This document shows, piece by piece, positions 34,001-42,881 of a stretch of DNA of 64,000 nt. This DNA comes from Cryomorphaceae bacterium. GTDB lineage: Bacteria > Bacteroidota > Bacteroidia > Flavobacteriales_D > Parvicellaceae. The position numbers and the translations under genes were made by a program. The stretch covers positions 1-64,000 of the forward strand of contig CAJJBV010000005.1 of NCBI GenBank assembly GCA_905182525.1, read 5' to 3'. The notes beneath the pieces were generated by a model. It worked only from the letters and a program-made list of their open reading frames with translations, was not told the origin of the DNA and made no database searches. Each line of letters opens with the position of its first letter. Position 1 is the first letter of the stretch.

Positions 34001-37000
34001 AGTCAAAGTATTTCCTGACAGTCCAGAACCGGTAATATTTTGATCGTCTGTTCCTGTTCCGTCTTGTAATCCAGCTAAATCTACTGTGGTTGATGTTCCG
34101 TCCTCAATATCTATCTGTAAAGAAGTTCCTGTTAATGTAGCACCACTTAAATTTTGATTATCTGTTCCGCTATTATTTAGTGAACTTAAGTCTACAGTTT
34201 CACTAGTTCCACCTTCTATACCAATAGTCAAAGTATTTCCTGACAGTCCAGAACCGGTAATATTTTGATCGTCTGTTCCTGTTCCATCTTGTAATCCTGA
34301 TAAATCTACTGTGGTTGATGTTCCGTCCTCAATATCTATCTGTAAAGAAGTTCCCGTTAATGTAGCACCACTTAAATTTTGATTATCTGTTCCGCTATTA
34401 TTTAGTGAACTTAAGTCTACAGTTTCATTAGCTCCCCCTTCTATACCAATAGTCAAAGTATTTCCTGACAGTCCAGAACCGGTAATATTCTGATCGTCTG
34501 TTCCGCTATTATTTAGTGAACTTAAGTCTACAGTTTCATTAGTTCCACCTTCTATACCAATAGTTAAAGTATTTCCTGATAGTCCAGAACCGGTAATATT
34601 TTGATCGTCTGTTCCTGTTCCATCTTGTAATCCTGATAAATCTACTGTGGTTGATGTTCCGTCCTCAATATCTATCTGTAAAGAAGTTCCCGTTAATGTA
34701 GCACCACTTAAATTTTGATTATCTGTTCCGCTATTATTTAGTGAACTTAAGTCTACAGTTTCATTAGTTCCACCTTCTATACCAATAGTCAAAGTATTTC
34801 CTGACAGTCCAGAACCGGTAATATTTTGATCGTCTGTTCCTGTTCCATCTTGTAATCCTGATAAGTCTACTGTGGTTGATGTTCCGTCCTCAATATCTAT
34901 CTGTAAAGAAGTTCCCGTTAATGTAGCACCACTTAAATTTTGATTATCTGTTCCGCTATTATTTAGTGAACTTAAGTCTACAGTTTCATTAGTTCCACCT
35001 TCTATACCAATAGTCAAAGTATTTCCTGACAGTCCAGAACCGGTAATATTTTGATCGTCTGTTCCTGTCCCGTCTTGTAATCCAGCTAAGTCTACTGTGG
35101 TTGATGTTCCGTCCTCAATATCTATCTGTAAAGAAGTTCCTGTTAATGTAGCACCACTTAAATTTTGATTATCTGTTCCGCTATTATTTAGTGAACTTAA
35201 GTCTACAGTTTCATTAGTTCCACCTTCTATACCAATAGTCAAAGTATTTCCTGACAGTCCAGAACCGGTAATATTTTGATCGTCTGTTCCTGTCCCGTCT
35301 TGTAATCCTGATAAATCTACTGTGGTTGATGTTCCGTCCTCAATATCTATCTGTAATGAAGTTCCTGTTAATGTAGCACCACTTAAATTTTGATTATCTG
35401 TTCCGCTATTATTTAGTGAACTTAAGTCTACAGTTTCATTAGCTCCACCTTCTATACCAATAGTCAAAGTGTTTCCTGACAGTCCAGAACCGGTAATGTT
35501 CTGATCGTCTGTTCCTGTTCCAGTTAATGAAGATATAGTCTACTGTTTGTGTTCCTCCTGCATCTGTTATCTCTAAATTAGTTCCCTCGACAATGATGTA
35601 TTATAATCATTAGATGGATCGTTATCTGCTCATCACTCCGTCTTGTAATGTGAAGTCTACAGTTTCACTAGTTCCACCTTCTATACCAATGTAAAGTTTT
35701 CCTGAAGTCCAGAACCGGTAATTTTTGATCGTCTGTTCCTGTTCCATCTTGTAATCCAGCTAAGTCTACTGTGGTTGATGTTCCGTCCTCAATATCTATC
35801 TGTAAAGAAGTTCCCGTTAATGTAGCACCACTTAAATTTTGATTATCTGTTCCGCTATTATTTAGTGAACTTAAGTCTACAGTTTCACTAGTTCCACCTT
35901 CTAATACCAATAGTCAAAGTATTTCCTGCATGTCCACGATAGACGCTGTTCCGTTCCTGTAGATCCAGTACTGTTCCTGTTCCGTCCTGTAAATCACTGT
36001 AAGTAGTTCCATCGTCGTAAGTTAGAAGTAAAGGTTCCGTTCCTCATATGTCTATCGTGTAGAAGCTAAGTTCCAGTTACCTGTAACACCAGTTGGGCCT
36101 GTAGCTCCAGTATTTCTGTTGATCCAGTTCAGTATCACAGTGTAAATGTAAGTCCATCGTCGTAAGTTAACGTAGTTCCATTCCCTTCTCTACCAATGGT
36201 AAAGTCTATTCCTGTACCAGAACTCCAGTTGACCTGTAGCACCAGTATTTCCTGTTGATCCTGTAAGATCGCAGTGGTGAACGTAGTTCCATCATCGTAA
36301 GTTAAAGTAAAGGTTCCGTTTCCATTATCTACCGTAGAAGCTATTCCGTTTCCTGTAGCACCAGTATTTCCTGTTGGTCCTGTAAGATCGGCAGTGGTGA
36401 ACGTAGTTCCATCGTCGTAAGTTAAAGTAAAGGTTCCGTTCCCATTGTCTACGCTAGAAGCTATTCCATTACCAGCAACACCAGTTGGGCCTGTAGCTCC
36501 AGTAATTCCTGTTGGTCCAGTCAGATCAGCAGTAGTAAAAGTAGTACCATCGTCGTAAGTTAAAGTAAAAGTTCCATTCCCATTGTCTACGGTAGAAGCT
36601 ATTCCATTACCAGCAACACCAGTTGGGCCTGTAGCACCAGTATTTCCTGTTGGTCCTGTAAGATCAGCAGTGGTGAACGTAGTTCCATCATCGTAAGTTA
36701 AAGTAAAGGTTCCGTTTCCATTATCTACCGTAGAAGCTATTCCATTTCCATCAGTTCCATTGGTCCCATTGACTCCGTTAGTTCCAGCAACTCCAGTTGA
36801 CCCTGCTGGTCCTGCTGGTCCTGCTAAAGTAGACACATCTACAGTTTGAGTTCCTCCTGCGTCTGTTATCTCTAAATTAGTTCCATTTAATACAAATGAT
36901 GTATTGTACTCATTCGTTGGATCTGCATCAGCATCTTCACCATAAACTGCATACATCGCAATTGGAACTGCCAAAATTTCACTATAATTTAGGACATCTC

Positions 37001-37313
37001 CATCTACTTCCACTTCTAAAAAATATGGAGGATTAGACCAGTCAATTGCATTAAAAGTTATTGAATCAGCTTCTCCAATATTAAGATTTATCAATCCCAG
37101 AAAGTTCGTTTCATATCCAAAGTAATTTTCTTCATATATAGGATTGCCATTTGTGCTGTTTTGATAAATATTAATTACAATGTCTACTTCCATATTGGTT
37201 ATTGGGCTTCCAGTGTTATCTCTTAATATGCTATTAAAACTAAAGCCGTGACTCTGAGACAATGCAACGTTATTAATACAAATAAATAGTATTAGATAAA
37301 TTATTTTTTTCAT
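31087..37313 (-). CDS. Very large repeat-built surface fibre protein, frameshifted
   Basis: About 2,070 codons from the start at 37313. In order: a signal peptide and the N-terminal module shared with the 29922 protein; a Gly-rich collagen-like and GTFTLTYDDGTTF repeat zone; a long array of 75-residue beta repeats; 17-residue YadA/Hia-head-like repeats (NIAIGYEALKSNTIGGN type); and a C-terminal capping domain (YIVKRTDGAGSFAVI to CDGSNWFIM) like those ending phage-tail-fibre-like proteins. There is no YadA membrane anchor and no T9SS sorting domain. The frame breaks at about 32456 and repeatedly between 35500 and 36260. It overlaps the stop of the PorP-OmpA gene (ATGA), so its export may depend on that neighbour. 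Confidence 0.75.
31470..32890 (-). repeat. YadA-head-like 51-bp coding repeats
   Basis: Around two dozen degenerate 17-residue units with consensus NxAIGxxALxxNTTGGN. This is the left-handed beta-roll type of repeat found in trimeric autotransporter heads, here near the C-terminus of the fibre. Two adjacent units at 31940-32020 are nearly identical at DNA level, indicating recent duplication. Confidence 0.8.
33061..35520 (-). repeat. Tandem 225-bp coding repeat array in the fibre gene
   Basis: About eleven near-identical 225-base units, each encoding two related half-units of 37 and 38 residues (one containing LSGNTLTIGIEGG, the other LTGTSLQIDIEDG). Differences are mostly silent or at a few residues (Ser/Asn/Ala before ETVDL). 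At about 34510 one second-half unit is missing, joining two first halves: an internal deletion by unequal exchange. Between 35540 and 35930 the array continues in broken form. Confidence 0.9.
36250..36840 (-). repeat. Collagen-like/beta repeats, 120-138 bp
   Basis: Four units each encoding NGNGTFTLTYDDGTTFTTA followed by a Gly-Pro-Thr-rich linker of variable length (TGPTGNTGATG, sometimes with GPTGVA). They form the N-terminal stalk of the fibre protein. Units differ by a few silent bases. A damaged fifth and sixth unit can be traced to about 35980. Confidence 0.75.
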
Positions 37314-39211
37314 TCTTTTTTCTTTAAATAAATTATGTATATTTCAGTTCTTCTATTTAATGCTCTACCCGTTGGATTAGCATTGGAGGCAATAGGTTTA
37401 ACTTCCCCTATCCCTTTTGCAGTTAATCTTGATTTATCTATTCCTTTTGTTATGAAATAATTTAATACTGTATTTGCCCTTTGTTGAGAAAGAATTAAAT
37501 TGTAATCCTCAGAACCAACATTATCTGTATGACCTTCAATAATTACAGAAATATTTTCTTGTACTTCAATAGACTCTATCAATGAGTCCAGAAAATATTT
37601 ATAGCTTGAACTAATAGAATATTTGTCAAAATAAAATTCAACATTTTTAACTGATTGATATTTATTTTTTTTATCAATATTGAGATTAACTTTTTTAAAG
37701 TATTTCTCAAAAACACTACTATCTAAAATAGTGTTGTTAGTGCTTGTTTTCTGAATCTTAGAAGAGTCTTCTAGTATAAACTCTTCACGCTGTATTTTTC
37801 TGTCCTCTAAAGTTTTTTCTACTTTTATTAAGCTGGCCACTACTTTTTTAGAGACCCCTGCTTCAATTATGTTAATCTCTATAAAATCAACATCTGTCTC
37901 ATCGGGCATATTCTTCAATTTATAATAATATTCTCCGGTGTTTGGTATATTACTAAAGGTGAAATCGTCTTCAATTTTCACGGCTGTAGATAGTATATTT
38001 CCGTCCGCATCAACCATAATTAAATTAACCCTATTTAACTGTTCCGTAGTTAACTTTTCAAATTTAAAAATAGAATTTTCTTGCTCTTTTTCAGAACTAA
38101 GCGAAAGATCACCAAAGTTTACGATAGGAACTAAATCAAGAGAATTCTTAATATTAATAGAGTCTAGTTCCGAGGCTTCTAATACTTTTTCATCTTTTCC
38201 CAAGACATTATCTAATTTGGTATTTTGATAAATAAAATTTATCTTTTCTTCATCTAATGGATGTTGAATATCTAGTTCTATGAATCTGTTTATCTTACGC
38301 TTTTCAAGCCTATACCCAACTGTTAATTCGTGGGTAGGAAATGAAATGTTTTTTGAAATTTCATAATTGTAATATGTACAGAATTTTTTGAATTCATACC
38401 CTAATATAAAGGCTAAGGTCAAGTTTCTGTAATTCGGATGATTTTCACTGGCCTCTAAATTGGTAGCGTAATTTCTATTTGCCAGGCCAAAAGTGAAAGT
38501 TTCGTTGAAATTTGCCAATAAAGCAAATGATCTTAAAAAGAAATCTCGGGTTAGAAAATTAAATAATATGTTAGGAGTTAAAGAAATCTTCTCATTGAGT
38601 TGAAAAGAATAACTAGAAATTAAATAATATTGTCTCCCATTTTTAAAAGATTTTGGGAGTTGATTTTTACTGATTTCTAAGTTTGAGTTATTCAAATACA
38701 AAGATGAAATACCTATTTCAAAGTTCTTGCTAGTATAATTAACCCCAAATGAACCATCTAAAATAATTTCGTTTGAACTTGTACTAAAAATATTATCGTT
38801 AGGGATTGCTGTCCTTACATTGGAAAAATCTGAAGTTTTCTGACTTGCTAAAATTCCAAGGCCAAGAGACAATTTATTTTTCTTATTAAAAACGATTTGT
38901 TTTGAATAATTGAAATTTAATTGATCTTCTTTAAATGCCCCCCCCTGGTTGTTTTGAGCAAATAAAATACTAAATCCATCATTATAGTTAGTAGAAAACT
39001 CAAATCCTGCAGTAATTTTTGTTGGAGAATTTTCAAAACCAGCCCACTGGTCAATGTAGTTGATGTATAGTGGATTATTAGATTCCCCACCAGAGAGGGA
39101 TGGATTATAAAAATAATCAAACAAATAGTATTGATTATTTGTAATAGTTTGTTGTGAAAAACCAATGGTATTAACAAATAAAAATAATATGTGAAGTTTT
39201 ATTTTATTCAT
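37310..39211 (-). CDS. PorP/SprF-family outer-membrane protein fused to a C-terminal OmpA domain
   Basis: 633 residues, intact. After the signal peptide, residues 20-300 match the PorP/SprF family (YYLFDYFYNPSLSGG, YINYIDQWAGFENSPTKI), beta-barrel proteins associated with the T9SS. A middle region (about 330-500) is followed by an OmpA-like peptidoglycan-binding domain with IIEGHTDNVGSEDYN, LSQQRANTVLNYF and NRRTEIYI. SprF-type proteins are paired with type B T9SS cargo, and here two such cargo genes lie directly upstream, one of them overlapping. It would dock cargo at the outer membrane while fixed to the cell wall. Its stop overlaps the start of the giant fibre. Confidence 0.88.
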   Translation of the reverse strand: MNKIKLHILFLFVNTIGFSQQTITNNQYYLFDYFYNPSLSGGESNNPLYINYIDQWAGFENSPTKITAGFEFSTNYNDGFSILFAQNNQGGAFKEDQLNFNYSKQIVFNKKNKLSLGLGILASQKTSDFSNVRTAIPNDNIFSTSSNEIILDGSFGVNYTSKNFEIGISSLYLNNSNLEISKNQLPKSFKNGRQYYLISSYSFQLNEKISLTPNILFNFLTRDFFLRSFALLANFNETFTFGLANRNYATNLEASENHPNYRNLTLAFILGYEFKKFCTYYNYEISKNISFPTHELTVGYRLEKRKINRFIELDIQHPLDEEKINFIYQNTKLDNVLGKDEKVLEASELDSINIKNSLDLVPIVNFGDLSLSSEKEQENSIFKFEKLTTEQLNRVNLIMVDADGNILSTAVKIEDDFTFSNIPNTGEYYYKLKNMPDETDVDFIEINIIEAGVSKKVVASLIKVEKTLEDRKIQREEFILEDSSKIQKTSTNNTILDSSVFEKYFKKVNLNIDKKNKYQSVKNVEFYFDKYSISSSYKYFLDSLIESIEVQENISVIIEGHTDNVGSEDYNLILSQQRANTVLNYFITKGIDKSRLTAKGIGEVKPIASNANPTGRALNRRTEIYIIYLKKKE

Positions 39212-39711
39212 TAATAATTTACAGTTAAAGCTCCTGAGTAAGTTTGATTTCCGGATACAAAGACAAAATAATAATCAGAACGAGGCACCAAGGATCCATT
39301 GAACATTCCATCCCAATTAATGTTATTTGGATATTCTTCAGCATATAAAATACCACCCCATTTATTAAAAACGGTAACCTTATAATTTTGCGTTTTATCC
39401 AGTACATCAATTACCCAACTATCATTTAAATTATCCTCATTTGGTGAAAACCCGTTTGGAATAAACAAAGGCATTTCTACAAACTCTTCTGTTTGAAGAA
39501 TACCTGGGAAAATCTTATTATTAGAACTATTTGTCGTATTAGAGAGAAGAAAGTTTAATCGATAGGTAAAGTTATCCAGTCCGATTTTTTCATCATTGAA
39601 AGTTGAACTAAATGTAGATTGGGTTAATGTATTTTGACATAAAGTAACTTTTTGAAAAAAAACAAAGAATAAAAAAAATGTTGTTATATGTTTAACCAAA
39701 TTTAAATTCAT
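39211..39711 (-). CDS. Minimal T9SS type B sorting-domain protein (paralogue A)
   Basis: 166 residues: signal peptide, about 60 residues of small conserved domain (TLTQSTFSSTFNDEKIG), then a gliding-motility-associated type B C-terminal domain (IPNGFSPNEDNLNDSW, VTVFNKWGGILY, INWDGMFNG). There is almost no other cargo, so it is nearly a bare sorting domain. It is 1-base adjacent to the PorP-OmpA gene. The N-terminal part is shared with the protein at 40032, and the two promoters share a 49-base element. Confidence 0.82.
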   Translation of the reverse strand: MNLNLVKHITTFFLFFVFFQKVTLCQNTLTQSTFSSTFNDEKIGLDNFTYRLNFLLSNTTNSSNNKIFPGILQTEEFVEMPLFIPNGFSPNEDNLNDSWVIDVLDKTQNYKVTVFNKWGGILYAEEYPNNINWDGMFNGSLVPRSDYYFVFVSGNQTYSGALTVNY

Positions 39712-39780
39712 AATAAACTTAAATTAATGAGTTGTTTTATTTATAATAATATCTTACCTCAGTTTTGAATAATACATAAT

Positions 39781-39829
39781 TACAATTATTTATTTGTGCG
39801 GATAAATATTTTTTTTTTTTAAAAACATC
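39781..39829 (-). promoter_or_regulatory. 49-bp element shared with 40602-40650 (copy A)
   Basis: The same length and nearly the same sequence as the element before the paralogous gene. Shared cores are ACAATTATTTATTT and CGGATAAATATTTTTTTT, ending AAAACATC; the two differ at about five positions. It is 70 bases upstream of the start at 39711. A promoter plus regulator site is the natural reading. Confidence 0.65.
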
Positions 39830-40031
39830 AATTTCCAAAAAAAAACATCTTATGATCGGTTATATATCTTAATTTAAAAAGTATAAGTGATATATTTTAA
39901 ATATAAATCATTTAAAATCCGAAAAACAAAGAGTAGTAGATAGAATTTCTTTATTCGCTTTAGTACAAATAGGCATATAAAAATGAAAAACTAATGTAAA
40001 ATAAGAAATACCATAAAAATAGTTAGTTTGT

Positions 40032-40562
40032 TTACCTAACCAAAGCAACGGTGCCGCTCTTAATTAATTTTTTGTCTTCACCATATTTACTTGTTTTAAT
40101 TCTATAAACATAGGTTCCTGTAGGTAAATTTTTGCCCTTAAAAGTCCCGTCCCATCCTTCGTTTAATTGGTAGGATTTATAAACCATTTGCCCCCACCTG
40201 GTATAAATTTCAATTTTAAAATCTGACATACCTTGACCATAAACCTTAAATAAATCATTTACTCCGTCCCCATCAGGACTAAAAGCAGTAGGTGAGTATA
40301 ATGAATAGGAGTTTTCTTCAACAACAGGATTTAAAATGCTTGGTTGAAGTAACCCTGGAAAAATATAATTATTAGAATTAAGATTGGAATAAGTTAAAAG
40401 AAAATTAATTCTATAAGTGTAATTATTCTGACCAATTTGCTCGTCATTATAAGTAGAACTAAAACTAGTTTGAGTTAAAATGTTTTGACCTAAAAAAACT
40501 TTTTTAAAGAAAATTAAAGAGATGAAAACTACTGTTATATATTTAAACCAATTGACTTCCAT
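40032..40562 (-). CDS. Minimal T9SS type B sorting-domain protein (paralogue B)
   Basis: 176 residues from the Met at 40562. This start is chosen over an upstream ATG at 40598 because it aligns with paralogue A (MEVNWFKYITVVF against MNLNLVKHITTFF) and keeps the shared 49-base element outside the gene. After the signal peptide come LTQTSFSSTYNDEQIGQ and a type B sorting domain (YSPTAFSPDGDGVNDLFKVY, IEIYTRWGQMVY, EGWDGTFKGKNLPTGTYVY). Only the C-terminal half differs much from paralogue A. It is monocistronic, with a separate promoter from the A-PorP-fibre operon. Confidence 0.82.
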   Translation of the reverse strand: MEVNWFKYITVVFISLIFFKKVFLGQNILTQTSFSSTYNDEQIGQNNYTYRINFLLTYSNLNSNNYIFPGLLQPSILNPVVEENSYSLYSPTAFSPDGDGVNDLFKVYGQGMSDFKIEIYTRWGQMVYKSYQLNEGWDGTFKGKNLPTGTYVYRIKTSKYGEDKKLIKSGTVALVR

Positions 40563-40601
40563 GAAAAAACTTAAATTCACATTGTATTTATAATGCATAT
40601 A

Positions 40602-40650
40602 TACAATTATTTATTTCTTCGGATAAATATTTTTTTTTAAAAAAAACATC
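40602..40650 (-). promoter_or_regulatory. 49-bp element shared with 39781-39829 (copy B)
   Basis: Copy B ends 40 bases before the start at 40562. Both copies have the same internal order: a T/A-rich box, CGGATAAATAT, a long T run and ACATC. A looser version may exist before the regulator gene at 42325-42383. Equal length and high identity in fast-evolving intergenic DNA suggest conserved function or recent duplication with the gene. Confidence 0.65.
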
Positions 40651-40715
40651 CTTTGTTTAAAGGACCTATCATTAGTTGTGAAATATTTCAATTCAAACCA
40701 TTAAGAACTATCTCT

Positions 40716-42307
40716 TCAATTTAGAAACTTATATTTATTTTTAATGAGATAGGTTTCTGAGTATCCGGTTTTATTTGATATTTCTGATATTAATTTGTTA
40801 TCTAAAAGCATTTTCTTTGTTAACTCTATTCTTTGTTTTTTTATGTACTTAGCAGGTTTGAAATTTCTATCTAAACTATTGATTTCATTGTAATCTAAGC
40901 TAAATTCCATTTCTAACATTTTCAAAGTTACAAGGCTCAAGTTTTTAGTAATGAAATACTTAATTTTATTAACTAATTGGTCATCAGAAATATTTTTCTT
41001 TCTTAAAAATCTAATGATTATTATTAAATAATAATCATTATTAATGCTCCGAAGTATAGATACGATTCATGATTATTAATTTTATAATTTTCGAAAATTA
41101 GATTTCTTTGAAAATCATTTACATTATTAATCGTATAAACTCCATGAATGCTACCAAAACTTATAAGTTTATCTGTCTTATAAACTGCATTACTATTAAA
41201 CTCATCTGTAATGTAATTATAGGATATCTTTTTTTTTGTTTTATCGAAAATACTTAACCCATTATTTCCAGATAAAAATATCAATTCATCATAATCTGAA
41301 ATTGTATGTGCAGTTGTTTTAAGTGATATTTGATCTATTAATTTTAACCCATTTGCTGTTCTTTTTAAGGTCAACAATGATTTATTTTCAGAAATAGCAT
41401 AAAAATAATTACCATTAATTTCACTTTCTAAAATATCACTAATTTTATTATTAAGATTATTGTCTATAATATCAACTTCAAAATTGTTTGTATTAATTGA
41501 AATATATCTTTTATTGTCAATAAAGTGAAATTCTCCTCTGTCTTTTATACGGTTATCTATCTTATTTTTTATGGGTATAATTTTATTTTGACATGTATAA
41601 ATTAGTTTAAAAATATTAGACTCATAATCGTAGTTAAAAATTCCTTTGTTTGAAATGGCTAAATAATTAGACTTATCTATCAAAATAATATCTGATATAT
41701 TTCCATATTTACTATTGGTCCTTATTGAGTTATCGTTGTCATATATAATAGTTTCTGTATTATTTTCATAAGTTAGTAGACCATTATAACATACAAAAAT
41801 TATACTGTCAAATTCTTTTATTTGACCATCTGTATAGGTTATTTTATTTAACTTATTACCATTGATATATACACCGTTATAAGACCCAATAGCATTTTTA
41901 TTGATTGCTCTCACACTTCCGTATGGTGAAAAGGTATATGAAAGATCGTCGTAAACTAACAATTTTCCTCTTGCGATAACAAAGAGCATGTTTTCTAGAT
42001 ATGCAAAATCCGTTACTGATTTTGAGTAAAAATCAGGATATATTTTAGGCGGATTTATGAATTTAATTTTAAAATCATCATCTTTTGAAAAATCAGATTT
42101 TATAGGCCCAAAAATAGATTTATTATAATGAATTAAATTATTGTCTTTTGATGAATTAACTTTATATATTCCACAATTGGAACTTACATACAATTCATTT
42201 TCGTAGTTAACAAAATTATAGAATATTTTTTCATCATAAATTTTGTGAATTGTAAAAGCATTATTAAATAACAAAATAAAATTTAAAATATATAGGCTAT
42301 TTATCAT
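40716..42307 (-). CDS. Membrane beta-propeller sensor with AraC-type DNA-binding domain, one frameshift
   Basis: About 530 residues. From 42307: a signal-like helix, then about 400 residues of propeller-type repeats (ENELYVSSNCGIYKV, SNYLAISNKGIFNYD, DELIFLSGNNGLSIFDK). A membrane segment (YLYFGALIMIII) follows, then a break, then LIIIIRFLRKKNISDDQ and an AraC-type HTH (RIELTKKMLLDNKLISEI, KTGYSETYLIKNKYKF). Periplasmic propeller, membrane helix and cytoplasmic HTH is a one-component version of the Bacteroidota hybrid sensors. The break sits exactly inside a perfect palindrome (41012-41040). The downstream T9SS genes are natural targets. Confidence 0.65.
41012..41040. repeat. Perfect 14-bp inverted repeat inside the regulator gene
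   Basis: Arms TAATGATTATTATT and its exact complement around a single A. It covers the end of the membrane helix and the frame break between propeller and HTH halves. A hairpin here could cause replication, sequencing or ribosome slippage; it lacks G/C and so is a weak RNA structure. Confidence 0.85.
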
Positions 42308-42436
42308 GTGTTTTTAAATTTTGATAATTCAATTATAGCGTTTATTTTTTGTTGTGACAATTTTTTTTTTTTAATAAAATGTCTTTTTGAGATGTAATTA
42401 TTTTTAATCTGAAATATTCTTATATTTAAGACACTT

Positions 42437-42800: not shown

Positions 42801-42808
42801 TACAGTTG

Positions 42809-42881
42809 TTGTCCCACTAGGGCTCGAACCTAGACTCTTCTGTACCAAAAACAGACGTGTTGCCAGTTACACCATGGGACA
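42809..42881 (-). tRNA. tRNA-Gln (anticodon TTG)
   Basis: 73 bases. The acceptor TGTCCCA pairs with TGGGACA. The anticodon stem TCTGT/ACAGA carries loop TTTTGGT with anticodon TTG, and the T arm is CTAGG-TTCGAGC-CCTAG. The discriminator is A and CCA is not encoded. A strong terminator follows. Confidence 0.95.

Follow-up and report, generated by a model that had tools for sequence, protein, structure and literature searches.

The DNA element that stands before two paralogous T9SS genes of a Cryomorphaceae bacterium is, most probably, an activator-dependent promoter combined with the operator of the adjoining membrane regulator, which would switch on surface genes and also control its own gene. 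The sequence-only reading had guessed that the propeller-HTH regulator encoded next door binds to a 49-bp repeat before the two genes. Our comparative analysis supports this guess, as the same spacing of half-sites is common to the target promoters and the regulators' own promoters. Furthermore, in five other genomes the element accompanies homologues of the regulator before an unrelated target, polysaccharide export.

A conserved element before paralogous T9SS genes

The window, i.e., the whole stretch of 64,000 nucleotides analysed here, belongs to assembly GCA_905182525.1 (2.19 Mb, 6 contigs; genome G000) and holds the following features, all on the minus strand:

36135..37313, minus: collagen-like repeat protein, probably in the same operon as target gene 2 (reading frames)
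37310..39211, minus: protein with a PorP/SprF and an OmpA domain, probable operon with target gene 2 (touching reading frames)
39211..39711, minus: target gene 2, paralogue of target gene 1, with a CHU_C / T9SS type B sorting domain (domain match)
39775..39782, minus: proposed -7 box TAATTATG of copy 1, 18 bp past the operator (-7 consensus from the partial text of PMC9723704)
39801..39849, minus: proposed operator of copy 1, GAT-N17-GAT-N23-ATC, 49 bp (sequence comparison)
40032..40562, minus: target gene 1, small secreted protein with a CHU_C / T9SS type B sorting domain (inner ATG taken as the start)
40596..40603, minus: proposed -7 box TATATATG of copy 2, 18 bp past the operator (sequence comparison)
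40622..40670, minus: proposed operator of copy 2, GAT-N17-GAT-N23-ATC, 49 bp (sequence comparison)
40716..41030, minus: C-terminal part of the regulator in another frame, helix-turn-helix domain (HTH_18 the best Pfam match, below its cut-off)
41024..42307, minus: N-terminal part of the regulator with signal/anchor, beta-rich propeller-like domain and start of the transmembrane helix (intact homologue in G003)
42330..42337, minus: proposed -7 box TATAATTG of the regulator gene, 18 bp past GTC (sequence comparison)
42356..42383, minus: 28-bp GAC..GTC, a reduced operator-like site within the promoter of the regulator gene (sequence comparison)

The 49-bp stretches first noticed at 39781-39829 and 40602-40650 are identical at exactly 44 of 49 positions, compared to a best score of 34 (mean 29.1) in 1000 dinucleotide-shuffled intergenic pairs aligned as ungapped 49-mers. 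Their boundaries had been drawn too short. The conserved unit extends over about 39765-39853 and 40586-40674 on the minus strand, and the pair is not the whole element, as the fuller one includes the promoter itself. The distances of about 70 and 40 bases to the gene starts are correct provided that the ATG at 40562 is the start of the second gene; the longer open reading frame has its ATG at 40598, within the proposed -7 box of copy 2, and is an improbable start. A looser version had been suspected ahead of the regulator (42325-42383) and proved real: positions 42356-42383, together with a -7-like box at 42330-42337, can be aligned to the promoter regions of homologous regulator genes, this copy being the weakest of those compared. 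The genome-wide motif search that had been proposed as a check returned three strong sites in the 2.19-Mb genome, including a third copy elsewhere, which rules out a widespread repeat.

Copy 2 (40586-40674) is nearer to copy 1 than to its orthologue in the congener G003 (L017:686-773), which would fit a re-homogenisation of copies 1 and 2 or a decay of the G003 site. The two CHU_C paralogues lie side by side and share 71% identity over 228 nt. CHU_C orthologues in other congeners lie in a different operon (adhesin, CHU_C, PorP/SprF), and the regulator was not found in the congeners having that operon. The collagen-like gene (36135-37313) contains repeats of 120 and 138 bp whose frame is apparently lost near the C-terminus, which suggests a second frameshift in addition to that in the regulator. 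ARAGORN placed a tRNA-Gln upstream of the regulator (42808-42881) and a tRNA-Phe with the unusual anticodon AAA at 1437-1523, which is possibly false.

Distribution of the element and co-occurrence with the regulator

Altogether, ten strong copies were found in seven genomes: three in G000, two in G003, a congener of the same genus, and one each in five Flavobacteriaceae-type genomes. These sites come from about four lineages and the site counts are therefore not independent. A sequence-only model of five sites (R1; three of G000, two of G003) found no further strong site in G000 and ten congeners, the next matches having E-values of 0.002 and above. Among 99 relatives searched, only G003 gave a strong match, and nine others gave weak ones (E 2.0e-4 to 8.4e-4). 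G003 retains the locus from the regulator to the PorP/SprF-OmpA gene, with one site before each paralogue.

When public genome contigs were searched with a pattern for the 3' core, 28 stretches matched, five of which (L125, L129, L132, L133, L135) hold the element at full length, with the upstream GATGTT and the A/T tract. L132 agrees with the G003 locus in length and sites, and its second site is the degenerate one. The regulator is present in all five long-element stretches, whole in four and as a remnant in one, and was absent in the other 23 (tblastn, E 1e-3). As the core pattern had been built from the first five sites and was used to fetch L125, L129, L133 and L135 (four of the ten sites), agreement in their 3' half is built in; the new evidence from these loci is only their upstream half and their regulators. 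L182, which was fetched through the regulator protein and not through DNA, is also new evidence. Five Bacteroidales-type stretches (L122, L124, L136, L137, L139) share a near-identical sequence (about 90 bp viewed) where a small gene begins, perhaps a single mobile element present in many gut genomes.

The regulators of L129, L133 and L135 are 62-64% identical to that of G003 and end just upstream of the element, and in L125 a 22-residue remnant of the regulator's C-terminus is left. Downstream in L129 lies a gene with the Pfam domains Poly_export and SLBB. The downstream proteins of L133, L135, L125 and L182 are 54-74% identical to it (tblastn; that of L125 is cut by the locus end), Pfam also places an export gene downstream in L182, and a Wzz-type gene comes next in L129, L133 and L135. 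Since an export gene is downstream in the relatives and a CHU_C gene in G000 and G003, the element tracks the regulator rather than the target.

A profile of four regulators, run against 397 genomes of the Flavobacteriaceae, the family of G102 (genome of L133), gave six matches, two of them close (G102 and G291) and four distant. In G291, locus L182 carries the element before the same kind of export gene, scoring E 1.3e-5 with R1 and E 2.4e-13 with R2, a model of nine sites including that of L125, which is congeneric with G291. Strong R2 matches occurred only in G102 and G291 when the 397 family genomes (the same set, judged from equal numbers and labels) were scanned. Four weaker matches (E 2e-5 to 8e-4) comprised two in coding frames and two before genes, one of which we take to be rpsT (S20) while the other looks secreted; none of these four genomes was among those of the 397 with a regulator match. 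The weak R1 and R2 matches examined (L071-L075, L082, L083, L092, L188-L191) were read as chance, and the relatives' other matches L018-L026 looked unrelated by sequence and, for L022, L025 and L026, by reading frames.

Within the genus of G291, two of 19 genomes have the regulator, G291 itself and G100, the genome of L125. G100 holds the regulator remnant and the element on one contig (L125:7378-7443) and an intact regulator on another (L192), which ends inside the same element; this duplicate arrangement reflects either strain variation or a split assembly. Overall, every genome with a strong element (7/7) has a close homologue of the regulator, frameshifted in G000, which has a broken regulator gene yet the most copies. 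A larger regulon defined by the short core TTATC-N16-18-TAWWTATG was rejected, with nine matches in G000 compared to ten for the reversed control; the corresponding numbers in G003 were five and three.

Anatomy and spacing of the element

On the coding strand, the element reads GAY-N17-GAY-N23-RTC over 49 bp with A/T tracts between the half-sites. Seven of the ten targets match this exactly, with GAY repeats 20 bp apart. L133 and L135 have a 16/24 spacing of equal total length with GAY repeats 19 bp apart, and the G003 orthologue of copy 2 is degenerate, being 6 bp shorter and giving no 49-bp match. GAY-N17-GAY-N23-GTC is likewise present in the own promoters of four out of five regulators. 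The exception is the regulator in the window, whose promoter has a 28-bp GAC..GTC but lacks the upstream GAY 20 bp away. The own promoter of the G003 regulator was excluded from the five because it is cut off by a contig end; that of L192, examined afterwards and outside the five scored, is also an exact match and nearly identical to that of L182.

The (17,23) pattern was initially picked by eye from the targets and had also been spotted in several own promoters before scoring. For this reason, a ranking of all 930 spacing pairs in 200-bp promoters (10 targets, 5 own promoters) is the fairer measure. In this ranking (17,23) was the only spacing to reach at least four promoters (targets 7/10, own promoters 4/5), and as it ranks first in both sets, the ranking supports an operator-promoter. 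Dinucleotide shuffles yielded the spacing in at most 0.2% (0.002) per promoter. Background sequence of 417,690 base-strands contained six matches to the 49-bp pattern, two of which are copies 1 and 2.

The distance from RTC to the -7 box is 18 bp in eight of the ten targets and 17 bp in copy 3 and the G003 orthologue of copy 2; from GTC it is exactly 18 bp in 5/5 own promoters. The box reads TAnnTATG in 9/10 targets, one base off TAnnTTTG, and the remaining one, TAATTTGC of L182, fits the SM5 form. All five own promoters have TAnnATTG, again one base off the consensus. Four of these five read TTTTTGTC and therefore have TTTG near -33. The own promoters may have a basal activity that the same protein tunes. 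The sigma-A -7 box of Flavobacterium psychrophilum, TAnnTTTG, occupies positions -12 to -5 (partial text of PMC9723704). By analogy, if TAnnTATG has this position here, RTC would fall near -33 to -31 and the two GAY half-sites near -59 and -79.

In all seven pairs compared, conservation is higher in the element than in the flanking DNA, clearly so in five: 83 vs 65% between the window and G003, and 71 vs 52, 75 vs 58, 78 vs 55 and 82 vs 59% in the other clear pairs. Two close pairs were nearly even (92 vs 86 and 99 vs 98%).

The regulator

The reading frame of the regulator in the window is broken within the transmembrane helix (41024-41030, minus), which leaves the sensor and HTH parts in separate frames. 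All six close homologues examined (L027, L129, L133, L135, L182, L192) are intact. The break is either real or an assembly error, and assembly indels are a fair suspicion given the regulator frameshift, the lost frame of the collagen-like gene and an adhesin-like gene at copy 3 that is split over several frames. The intact G003 orthologue has 538 aa, with a hydrophobic stretch at 417-435 directly followed by the HTH region. Pfam matched only HTH_18 in this protein (E up to 0.01), with no match to a histidine kinase, a receiver domain or a propeller domain.

HTH_18 was the best Pfam match in each of three close domains (E 0.0014, 3.4e-5 and 7.9e-5, below its cut-off), while among three distant homologues it was best in one, second in one and absent in one. 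An AF2 model of the HTH domain is all-helical with seven helices (pLDDT 76.7). A fold search with this model retrieved the AraC-type chains of Rns, YesN, AraC and AraT at Z 3.3-5.3, scores that unrelated HTH proteins equalled or exceeded; Foldseek returned nothing at E 0.001 or better. The model of the whole protein is poor (pLDDT 48.3, beta-rich) and usable for the HTH part only, with many propeller proteins among the fold matches listed (Z below 7); the sensor would thus be beta-propeller-like. A PDB sequence search with the regulator profile gave none up to E 1, and the two regulators submitted to NCBIfam had no match. Between lineages, the HTH parts are better conserved than the sensors (71-83% vs 59-71%). 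The four distant homologues L183-L186 are divergently oriented to the neighbouring genes, which look secreted or lipoprotein-like. The 49-bp pattern was absent at these four, which perhaps belong to a wider regulator family with other sites.

Copy 3 and alternative explanations

The third copy in the genome lies apart from the window:

G000:C4:413796-413853: copy 3, 85% identical over 58 bp

It precedes a large, repeat-rich, secreted-looking adhesin-like protein, split over several open frames, and adjoins a regulator with TPR and a LuxR/sigma4-like HTH. The adhesin-like gene and the TPR regulator are also found in G003 and G008 without the element. In these two genomes, the ATG comes 17 bp after a -7-like box, which reads TAAGTTTG in G003 and has diverged in G008. 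In G000, 112 bp follow the same TAAGTTTG up to the adhesin ATG (L011:5774-5885), with copy 3 inside, and the stretch is 95 bp longer than in the two orthologues. This suggests that copy 3 was inserted in the G000 lineage and recruited another surface gene; its tie to the propeller-HTH regulator would be by sequence only.

Such an insertion is what a small mobile repeat would leave, with 112 bp against 17 in two orthologues. We nevertheless consider this explanation very improbable: elsewhere the copies hold their place between regulator and target, a single full copy is present in five of the seven genomes (with a further part-copy at a contig end in G100), and no target-site duplication was noticed on inspection by eye. 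No more credible is a leftover of gene duplication, in which the promoters would be alike merely because the CHU_C genes are paralogues. These genes are indeed adjacent and related, but the element is more alike (44/49) than they are, and copies precede a non-homologous gene in G000 and export genes elsewhere. Because the element precedes unrelated genes, a duplication relic was rejected as the full explanation.

Two further explanations, both unlikely, deserve somewhat more weight. The element could be a shared strong promoter for polymerase alone, with a UP-like A-tract and a variant sigma box, in which the regulator takes no part. Its 3' half is promoter-like, the weak R2 match before the probable rpsT reads TTGTATTTTTGCA, and every copy has long A/T tracts. 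However, the genome has only three strong copies and the short core is no commoner in G000 than its reversed control, and polymerase alone leaves the 20-bp GAY pair and the co-occurrence with the regulator unexplained. Alternatively, another, unlinked factor might act through this operator on the regulator gene as well as on the surface operons; co-location by itself is no proof of binding, and copy 3 stands beside a different regulator. Against such a factor, every genome in which a strong element was found also has a close homologue of the propeller-HTH regulator, and the locus of the TPR regulator and adhesin occurs in G003 and G008 without the element.

Proposed mechanism and implications

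We favour the adjoining regulator as the protein that acts on the element. A membrane-anchored activator is proposed because of the positions of the -7 box and half-sites, the HTCS-like repeats, the HTH_18 match and the all-helical model. The regulator would be a one-component protein with a propeller-like sensor outside the inner membrane, where we infer that it receives its signal, a single transmembrane helix and a cytoplasmic AraC-like HTH. Its predicted binding site consists of three GAY/RTC half-sites, of which two form a direct repeat with 20-bp spacing and the third is inverted; together they cover 49 bp, from about -79 to about -31 relative to the inferred start site. Binding would set the regulator against polymerase at the variant sigma-A -7 box TAnnTATG, where it would activate rather than repress. 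In this way it may switch on the small T9SS-sorted proteins and the operon of PorP/SprF-OmpA and collagen-like proteins, and through the related site in its own promoter it probably regulates itself.

In relatives, the same pair would drive polysaccharide export, and in G000 the adhesin-like gene seems to have acquired a third copy in front of it. As the relatives carry the pair before polysaccharide-export genes, the switch has apparently been rewired to different surface genes. Whether the transmembrane regulator makes up a portable switch with its 49-bp operator-promoter of three half-sites, used for export in several Flavobacteriaceae, for T9SS-sorted proteins in the present lineage and, through an inserted copy, for an unlinked adhesin, is a broader proposition on which we judge the case evenly balanced. 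If true, regulator, operator and a small regulon for surface proteins and surface polysaccharide of Flavobacteriales would come in one unit, a membrane regulator would have kept its DNA site while target genes were exchanged, and a promoter copy would have recruited a new gene. As far as we are aware, the DNA site is known for few regulators of T9SS-linked genes in this order. Among the matches listed in a search of the open-licence literature (titles and abstract openings), we found no description of the element-regulator pair.

Comparison with known systems

Transcription of T9SS-linked genes is controlled by SigP/PorXY or ECF systems. The present case resembles these in that T9SS-linked genes are under transcriptional control, and differs in the regulator, in the promoter and in the genes, which here are sorted cargo and a PorP/SprF-like partner. 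Control of T9SS genes by SigP/PorXY or ECF is mentioned in the partial text of PMC9723704. The same text gives the flavobacterial promoter forms as TAnnTTTG for sigma-A and TAnnTTGY for SM5, the targets of SM5 including surface and gliding genes. The -7 boxes described here share with these forms the TA and the TG end, and TAATTTGC of L182 fits SM5; in contrast, TAnnTATG (nine targets) and TAnnATTG (own promoters) are one base off.

The partial text of PMC3878776 offers two further comparisons. SusR-like regulators of Bacteroides are also one-component proteins with a C-terminal HTH, SusR having maltose as periplasmic ligand, but the predicted SusR repeats are 67 or 77 bp apart, compared to 20 here. 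Bacteroides HTCS likewise combine a periplasmic sensor, a membrane passage and a C-terminal AraC-type HTH, and are encoded beside their surface operon. Their AraC-type sites are predicted direct repeats averaging 21 bp, i.e., two helical turns, and the direct half-sites here, at 20 bp, are also two helical turns apart. In contrast to HTCS, the regulator described here has about 530 aa in all with kinase and receiver unmatched, its site includes a third, inverted half-site and also stands in the regulator's own promoter, and its targets would be polysaccharide export or T9SS-sorted proteins rather than glycan-use loci.
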